Shown here piece by piece: positions 137-6,877 of a stretch of DNA of 64,000 bases. The translations under genes and the position numbers were made by a program. Origin of the DNA: Paracoccaceae bacterium. Its GTDB lineage: Bacteria > Pseudomonadota > Alphaproteobacteria > Rhodobacterales > Rhodobacteraceae. Position 1 is the stretch's first letter, and every line of letters begins with the position of its first letter. Location of the stretch: assembly GCA_020629115.1 (NCBI GenBank), contig JAHDDY010000001.1:1-64000 (forward strand). Direction: 5' to 3'. The notes beneath the pieces were generated by a model. That model was not told where the DNA came from, searched no databases, and worked only from the letters and a program-made list of their open reading frames with translations.

Positions 137-152
137 CTCATATGGCATAACA

Positions 153-173
153 TACTTCGTATTATACGAAGTA
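153..173. repeat. 21-bp perfect palindrome with TTA spacer
   Basis: Arms TACTTCGTA and TACGAAGTA flank a 3-bp TTA. A degenerate copy of the arm (TTTACGAAATATG) follows at about 187-199. It lies in AT-rich DNA unlike the chromosome around it. It could be an operator, a partition-type site or a recombination site; nothing nearby decides. Confidence 0.6.
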
Positions 174-284
174 AGATACGGCATACTTTACGAAATATGT
201 CATACCCTTATCCCGTCACCGTTGGACCTGATCCGAACACAGTTAGTCCAGATTTCGCCTCAATCTAAATCGCCGCAGGGGTTT

Positions 285-613
285 TACAGGGGACCGCTGT
301 TTGCTACAGGACTAGGTCGGCCCTAAAACCTGTTTATTTTCAATGAGTACAGCGATTACAGGGGTACAGGACTTTTTTCCGACCATCTATATCTCCCTAT
401 ATACGCGTGTGTTTTATTTTTTTACGAGCGCGTCGTCGTCCTCCCCGTAATATCCCTATGGGAAAATAAAACATAAGGGCCGTACTCTCTATAAGGAGAT
501 ATAGGTAGATTCTAGTCCTGTAAGTCCTGCAACTCCTGTGGTTATTGATATTAAACGGCTATTTCACAGGACTTGTAAAAATAAAGTCCTGCACCGTGAA
601 TCGAAACCCCTGT
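285..613. repeat. 9-mer TACAGGACT/AGTCCTGTA array around a nested dyad
   Basis: TACAGG-type 9-mers lie at 285-293, 305-313, 357-364 (followed directly by 365-373) and 565-573. The reverse orientation (AGTCCTGTA type) is in three head-to-tail copies at 514-522, 523-531 and 532-540, and again at 585-593; a CCCCTGT remnant is at 607-613. Between the two inner groups lie exact 10-bp inverted arms at 387-396/495-504 and 411-420/463-472. The three nested pairs share a centre near position 442-445. The interior is AT-rich. This resembles an iteron-type origin or an autoregulated operator region of a mobile element, but no replication or regulator gene is in view. Confidence 0.55.
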
Positions 614-753: not shown

Positions 754-908
754 GGCGGAGGTACCCGAGGTAGGGAGCTGGCGGAGGTAGGGTGAGGGAC
801 GAATTGTCGGAGGTATCCGAGGTAGGGTGAGGGACGGGCGGGCGGAGGTATCCGAGGTAGGGCGAACGGTCGGAGGTAGGGGTGCTGGCGGAAGTATCCG
901 AGGCGGGG
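754..908. repeat. G-rich imperfect tandem repeats
   Basis: A unit built from GGCGGAGGTA and CCGAGGTAGGG recurs in full at 754-775, 805-826, 841-862 and 887-908, with shortened copies lacking the middle at 780-792 and 869-881. The copies are separated by variable GGGACGG-type spacers. The strand bias is extreme (G-rich on the plus strand). No reading frame is preserved through the copies, so a coding repeat is unlikely. Function unknown. Confidence 0.6.
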
Positions 909-1556: not shown

Positions 1557-1646
1557 TGGCGGAGGGACGGGGATTCGAACCCCGGAGACGGTTTCCCGCC
1601 TACACACTTTCCAGGCGTGCGCCTTCGACCACTCGGCCACCCCTCC
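1557..1646 (-). tRNA. tRNA-Ser (anticodon GGA)
   Basis: The minus strand folds as a class II tRNA. The 7-bp acceptor stem is GGAGGGG with TCCCTCC, the anticodon stem is CACGC/GTGTG, and the loop CTGGAAA gives anticodon GGA (reads UCC/UCU). A long variable arm typical of serine tRNAs and a T-arm of CGGGG-TTCGAAT-CCCCG follow. The discriminator is G and CCA is encoded. Its 3' end faces the repeat-rich, gene-poor DNA at the left edge, the usual orientation for a tRNA gene used as an integration site; the tRNA itself is intact. Confidence 0.95.
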
Positions 1647-5642: not shown

Positions 5643-6617
5643 CTACCCGGTGCAGCGCGCCAGCCGCTGCACCGCCAGCACATCGCCCGACAGGACGAGC
5701 GCGTCGCCATCCGGCTCCAGGCGGTAGAGCGCGCGTTGCGGCACGGCGTTGGGCACGTCGCTTTCCTGCATCAGGAGCGTGGTCAGGTCGTAGCCGTTCT
5801 CGCGGAACAGCGCGTTCTTGAACCGGGCCGTCGCCGCGCCGACGACGAGGCCGTTCGGCTGCACCGTCACGCGCGCCTCGCTCACCGTCTCGGTGCAGGC
5901 CCCGCCATCGGCATCCCAGGTGCCGAGCAGATGGGGGGGCAGTTCGGGGATGGTCGTCGTCGCGCCGGGGTCGATCGTCAGGCCCGTCGCGGCGGCGAGG
6001 CGCATGGCCTCGTCCGGGCGGGTTGGCATGGCGGGAACCGGCGCACCGCCCGCCGCCTCGGGGCCGAGGAAGCGCGTGGAGACCCAGCCGAGCGCCATCC
6101 CCCCTTCCCCGACCTCGCACCAGTCCGCCGTGGCGGTACAGTCGAGCACGTCGAGACCGCCGCGCCCGGCGGCAACGGTGGTGACGACGGCCCTGTCGGT
6201 GCCGGGACCGGCGCGCACGTTGAGGGCGCTGCCCGGCTGCACCCCGGTCACGGCATGGGTCGCGTCGGGCGGGAAACGTGCGTGCCAGGCAGGCGCGGCG
6301 ACGGGGTCGGGCGGCGGGGGCGCGCCCTCGTCCGGGGCGAGATAGGCGGCAGAGGCCCAGCCGTCAGCCCCGATCCGCGACCGGATGCGGCACCAGGCAC
6401 CCGCCGCATCGCAATAGAGCACGCTCAGCCCCGTCTGCCCCGGCGACAGCGTGCCGAGCACCGCGTTCGCGACGCCTGGCCCCTCGCGCAGGTTCAGCAC
6501 GCTTCCCGCCGCGATACCCTCTACCCGCACGACCGCGCCCTCCTCGAAGCCCGTCCCCTGTGCGAGGGCGGGAGATGAGAGAGCGAGAATGCAAGCAAGG
6601 ATGGCCGGGGATCTCAT
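5643..6617 (-). CDS. Secreted protein with two bacterial SH3 domains
   Basis: A signal peptide is clear (hydrophobic stretch ending ALAQ, residues 1-20). Two SH3b-type repeats follow, at about 28-95 and 118-180, each with the N-L-R-x-G-P-G pattern (VLNLREGPG and ALNVRAGPG). A C-terminal region of about 100 residues has several cysteines and may form a disulfide-stabilised domain. SH3b domains usually bind cell-wall or other envelope polymers, so an envelope or periplasmic role is likely. No catalytic domain is recognised. The gene is convergent with the acyl-CoA synthetase gene, 26 bp away. Confidence 0.8.
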   Translation of the reverse strand: MRSPAILACILALSSPALAQGTGFEEGAVVRVEGIAAGSVLNLREGPGVANAVLGTLSPGQTGLSVLYCDAAGAWCRIRSRIGADGWASAAYLAPDEGAPPPPDPVAAPAWHARFPPDATHAVTGVQPGSALNVRAGPGTDRAVVTTVAAGRGGLDVLDCTATADWCEVGEGGMALGWVSTRFLGPEAAGGAPVPAMPTRPDEAMRLAAATGLTIDPGATTTIPELPPHLLGTWDADGGACTETVSEARVTVQPNGLVVGAATARFKNALFRENGYDLTTLLMQESDVPNAVPQRALYRLEPDGDALVLSGDVLAVQRLARCTG

Positions 6618-6819
6618 CCGCGATTCTCCGATGGGCGTACGGGGAATACCGTATGGCCCGTCATGACGGAAATGCGGCGACGGCGAGCGAAATCAACGTC
6701 CGCCCCGGCGGGTAGCGGATCAGTTTCAAAATAACCGTAGAGTGTCTACCACCCGGTGCAGCGCGCGGCGCTCGACCGGATGGCTAGGGGCCATGGGCGT
6801 CGGCGCTCGCTGCCCCGGA

Positions 6820-6840
6820 TTGCCCGGTTCGACCGGGCAA
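6820..6840. terminator. Strong hairpin downstream of the kbp-like gene
   Basis: TTGCCCGG and CCGGGCAA form an 8-bp stem with a 5-nt loop (TTCGA), about 40 bp after the stop of the minus-strand LysM gene. No clear T-run follows. Confidence 0.4.
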
Positions 6841-6877
6841 CGCCGCCCTTCTTCCTACGGAGATTCGGCCCGACCGG

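Follow-up and report, generated by a model that had tools for sequence, protein, structure and literature searches.

A large dyad of short repeated words near tRNA-Ser(GGA) of a Paracoccaceae bacterium as the candidate replication origin of an integrated mobile element

Classical iteron origins are arrays of words in the same orientation, located on one side of an AT-rich region. Repeated words are also found at the ori and crr of P4, a satellite replicon with a helicase-primase initiator. The origins of PICIs (SaPI, EfCIV583, and EcCICFT073) are described by Fillol-Salom et al. 2018 (PMC6092414) as two iteron sets around an AT-rich region directly downstream of rep, and the PICI rep-ori was shown to drive plasmid replication. 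The preliminary description of the locus reported here knew of no described element with its layout, a statement that is overtaken by the published PICI origins. The likeness is one of layout: in both cases two sets of short words flank an AT-rich region, in association with an integrated element. Unlike the PICIs, the present dyad has no adjacent rep or pri gene in view, and its assembled flank shows no PICI genes. Because the published PICI origins fit the description, the dyad is most likely an origin of the PICI functional kind, but it cannot be assigned to the PICIs, as neither rep nor pri nor int can be seen. With the P4 ori and crr it shares the use of repeated words, whereas the P4 type I iteron, GGTGAACA, is absent.

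The window, that is, the whole stretch of DNA analyzed, comprises the first 64 kb of a 156-kb contig (C218) from a 4.3-Mb genome in 304 contigs. Since it is the left end of that contig, 285 bp separate the finding from the place where the assembly breaks. The features of the region are collected in Table 1.

Table 1. Features at the left end of the window (positions are those of the window)
Feature	Position	Strand	Basis
Debris of two IS21-family element ends (~1-43, ~89-137) at contig break	1-140	.	Sequence matches
Palindrome TACTTCGTAT-T-ATACGAAGTA in 22-bp imperfect arms; third related half-site at 189-206	141-206	.	Sequence
Large imperfect inverted repeat (dyad), proposed replication origin	276-613	.	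Symmetry tests, folding
Outer left 9-mer TACAGGACT	305-313	+	Word search
Inner left word pair, TACAGGGG (degenerate) then TACAGGACT	357-373	+	Word search
AT-rich core, 41% GC, candidate melting region	374-513	.	Holds pairs 387-396/495-504 and 410-420/463-473
Inner right array, three 9-mers head to tail, no spacer: TACAGGACT, TGCAGGACT, CACAGGAGT	514-540	-	Word search
Outer right 9-mer CACAGGACT, orientation opposite to inner right array	565-573	+	Word search
Outer right 9-mer TGCAGGACT	585-593	-	Word search
Second repeat array, eight exact [CG]GAGGTA words and two degenerate	757-907	+	0.25 exact words expected
tRNA-Ser(GGA), 3' end towards dyad	1557-1646	-	tRNA search; 3' side variable in genus

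Four inverted pairs (276-284/604-612, 365-373/514-522, 387-396/495-504, and 410-420/463-473) are concentric, with centers at 441.5 to 445.5. The preliminary description had placed three of them around one center, and all three are present as placed, the innermost pair being 11 bp long. Its extent of about 160 bp falls short of the full dyad, which is about 340 bp, and the outermost pair had been missed. The two arms (281-420 versus 463-630) align nearly end to end, with 106 of 129 aligned columns identical and a local alignment score of 92 against a maximum of 57.5 in 300 shuffles. When pairs of at least 9 bp were counted in dinucleotide shuffles, two concentric pairs appeared in 0 of 1,000. 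The raw dyad score is not decisive alone because GC-rich coding windows score about as high; corrected for composition, the 340-bp window at 281 gives a z of about 10, versus at most 5.6 when the 64 kb are sampled on a coarse grid. The GC content of the dyad is 43%, compared with about 68% in the neighboring coding DNA.

The words in the arms are likewise far from random. ACAGGACT, with at most one mismatch, occurs seven times in 380 bp where 0.23 copies are expected, and not at the chance frequency that the preliminary description had allowed for. The seven words of the CAGGACT type, three of them head to tail, fall within 330 bp. With AGTCCTG taken as forward, the order is a reverse word at 307, a reverse pair at 357-373, the 140-bp core, a forward triple at 514-540 with a 9-bp period, a reverse word at 567, and a forward word at 585. 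The left outer words are an imperfect mirror of the right outer words, which counts against the origin reading given below. The abutting head-to-tail 9-mers noted earlier on the right side are borne out at 514-522, 523-531, and 532-540, the third with two mismatches. A literature search on the word itself yielded no relevant paper.

From this architecture, the dyad is probably the site where replication starts in an integrated mobile element (a phage satellite, a prophage, or a plasmid-like island) whose replication depends on an SF3 primase-helicase; as an origin it may be orphaned. The case for an origin is one of architecture, and family membership is unproven. The preliminary description had left the choice between a replication origin and a strongly autoregulated operator; the origin is now the better supported, since the same architecture is found beside SF3 primase-helicase genes of plasmids and phages, and the operator is retained as a rival. 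In the proposed mechanism, initiator subunits would bind the CAGGACT words, and the mirror-arranged inner and outer sets would seat two opposed helicase hexamers that flank the 140-bp AT-rich core. The core would then melt and be replicated outward in both directions. The initiator gene would once have stood to the left of the dyad, beyond the IS21 insertions.

The comparison with plasmids was made on 14 loci chosen by helicase homology only, along each of which large dyads were scored. In 7 of the 14, the best dyad of the locus was located 3' of the helicase gene at a distance of no more than 700 bp, and in none (0/14) was it on the 5' side. The count on the 3' side compares with 9% expected (binomial p 9e-5), a comparison uncorrected for the 3' flanks being noncoding, and the remaining 7 of the 14 plasmids are without the 3' dyad pattern. 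Six of the seven 3' dyads were well beyond chance in dinucleotide shuffles, the one on Citrobacter pIsolateG_E (L190) being weak (z 3.0). They consist mostly of repeated words around a core of about 80 to 140 bp, with the right inner words often at 8- to 9-bp spacing. A 9.7-kb Roseomonas plasmid (NZ_CP024585.1, L181), found by protein homology alone, carries 9-mers GTGTCCAGG head to tail and inverted; they surround an AT-rich core directly 3' of a DUF5906 gene, and arm identity is 99/114. This plasmid, pSR14, pKNA06, and pC-202212 resemble our locus in having a large imperfect dyad of about 300 bp with mostly head-to-tail words around a core. L181 and similar small SF3 plasmids differ from it in using other words, in having the helicase gene directly adjacent, and in being autonomous plasmids. 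On Vibrio vulnificus pMP1 (L187), a very strong palindrome with a dyad score of 135 lies at about 6521-6860, far from the helicase gene.

Among viral contigs, IMGVR_UViG_3300033553_000577 (L100) has AAGTCCTG words, nearly the same as the dyad word, in the gap between a CHC2 primase gene and a D5_N/DUF5906 helicase gene. The inner and outer words are in opposite orientation around a TA-rich core, the same arrangement as in the dyad, whereas the outer array has a spacing of 11 bp rather than 9 bp, and no primase and D5-type helicase genes are visible beside our locus. Another contig (L105) carries a large dyad 3' of a VapE gene. In a further group (L107, L137, L150, L165, and L166), the 3' end of primase-type genes holds AGTCCTG triples and, after a spacer of about 33 bp, two to three copies of CAGGACW; the Toprim domain was found in L107 and L137, and the L150 and L165 pieces, which have no Pfam match, align with those by eye. 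The triple in the window has its inverted copy 35 bp on, which is nearly the same spacing. The L107-type arrays form part of the coding sequence at the 3' end, where most are translated as SPASPxSP...GHAGHAGH. In L137 the AGTCCTG/CAGGAC dyad is outside the frame, which suggests a function at the DNA level, and dyads of this type occur in beta/gamma elements. Viral matches to the 9-mer arrays are mostly coding repeats. The exact word in convergent layout was found in IMG/VR only in L091 and L195, the latter apparently a chance match in coding sequence. L091 (1-1666) has a T7-like RNA polymerase gene beside 500 bp of noncoding DNA, in which 12 CAGGACT words occur in either orientation. A match in Rhodovulum steppense (L146) was rejected as a simple tandem array with neither a dyad nor a replication gene.

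The setting of the dyad is that of a contig end with insertion sequence debris on one side and a tRNA gene on the other. The IS21 debris ends about 135 bp to the left of the dyad; positions 78-136 match DNA directly upstream of istA in IS21 elements on rhizobial plasmids, 1-43 are identical to the end of contig C97 of the same genome, and 89-122 are close to the ends of its contigs C76 and C289. The palindrome that follows the debris is a candidate operator or dimer-resolution site; the latter could apply because recombinase genes lie near the SF3 gene on L181, L189, L190, L191, and L192. This palindrome has ACTTCGTAT...ATACGAAGT in common with the arms of loxP, but it lacks the 8-bp spacer. 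The [CG]GAGGTA array to the right of the dyad is partly a 35-bp tandem repeat, and a 20-bp inverted repeat (1327-1400, 95% complementary, 34-bp loop) lies between the arrays and tRNA-Ser. ORF inspection of 141-1556 gave no convincing coding gene.

The gene after tRNA-Ser(GGA) is the core gene ETF-QO. In 13 relatives the 3' side of this tRNA gene is variable, different in nearly every species of the genus, and the 5' side is largely conserved. Near the 3' side, G007 has a phage integrase at a distance of 150 bp, G018 a serine recombinase at about 370 bp, and G006 an HsdM, and this variability is consistent with an integration hotspot. A second copy of the tRNA-Ser end, as in an attL/attR pair, was not found, and the short left flank has no integrase. 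Synteny breaks at 1647-1767: in the genus, tRNA-Ser(GGA) has another conserved 5' neighbor, and ETF-QO is elsewhere. Because the 5' neighbor here is ETF-QO and not the usual gene, this genome too has been rearranged. Contigs of several relatives likewise break near tRNA-Ser(GGA) or ETF-QO.

Several results count against the origin reading. Neither an initiator nor an integrase gene was found in the assembled flanks of the dyad, so that the constant adjacency of an initiator gene proposed as a check in the preliminary description does not hold within them. Three helicase/primase searches of the 98.8%-complete genome (304 contigs) gave nothing above threshold: no VapE (PF05272), no L107-type primase, and for DUF5906 (PF19263) only a match below the cutoff, to an AbiEii/SMC-like ATPase. 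The SF3 initiator gene may be situated on the far side of the IS21 insertions, or it may have been lost. At the DNA level, the dyad tract had no homologue in 60 relatives, about 298 genomes of the family, plasmids, and phages, the IS21 end excepted, and evolutionary constraint cannot be shown because the searched sets hold no homologue. A three-copy 9-mer pattern had no match in 395 genomes of the order, a pattern that misses the window itself as well.

An ordinary theta plasmid captured in the chromosome, with a non-SF3 initiator, would also bring an oriV with short iterons, AT-rich DNA, and a second repeat array; the GAGGTA array would then be a partition or copy-control site, and the palindrome at 141-206 could be its resolution site. 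We consider this unlikely, as classical iteron origins are one-sided arrays and not a 340-bp dyad, the dyad had no match among 72,556 plasmids, and positions 1-1560 contain neither a DnaA box nor a repABC-type parS. A chromosomal origin was rejected: there is no DnaA box, ETF-QO is at 406 kb in the 3.56-Mb G016, and relatives carry nothing alike upstream of ETF-QO.

It is still less probable that the dyad is an operator region, such as that of a phage repressor or an autoregulated switch, with its regulator gene once beyond the IS21 insertions. The words are symmetric, and one viral array (L117) stands behind a CI-like repressor, but the dyad is far too large and too symmetric for a simple operator, no regulator ORF is adjacent, and no sigma-70-like promoter was found in 1-1900. 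We give slightly less credence again to the remnant of an inverted duplication, or a MITE-like or hairpin-forming structural element without a replication role, in which the 9-mers would be passengers: the single strand does fold as one long imperfect hairpin (z -5.5) and IS debris adjoins it, but the locus is single-copy in the genome, Rfam returned nothing reliable except the tRNA, and the 9-mers are also head to tail and inside the arms, unlike a simple inverted duplication. A hairpin telomere was discarded, the center of the dyad not being a perfect palindrome. Least probable in our estimation is a non-autonomous replicon, in which the chromosome would retain an SF3-type origin that has no initiator of its own. 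An incoming phage, satellite, or plasmid would supply the helicase that fires this origin in trans, and the neighboring locus would thus be amplified or mobilized by another element.

If the dyad is indeed the origin of an integrated element with an SF3 primase-helicase, an alphaproteobacterium would carry the origin of a replicon resembling a phage satellite or a plasmid, and this origin would be recognizable by DNA symmetry alone, even with the helicase gene missing from the contig. The comparisons suggest that many otherwise unannotated plasmids and phages share a large dyad built of words just 3' of their SF3 primase-helicase genes, the word varying and the layout staying constant. Should that recurrence hold, it would offer a route to predict the origins of such elements and to pair their initiators with binding words.
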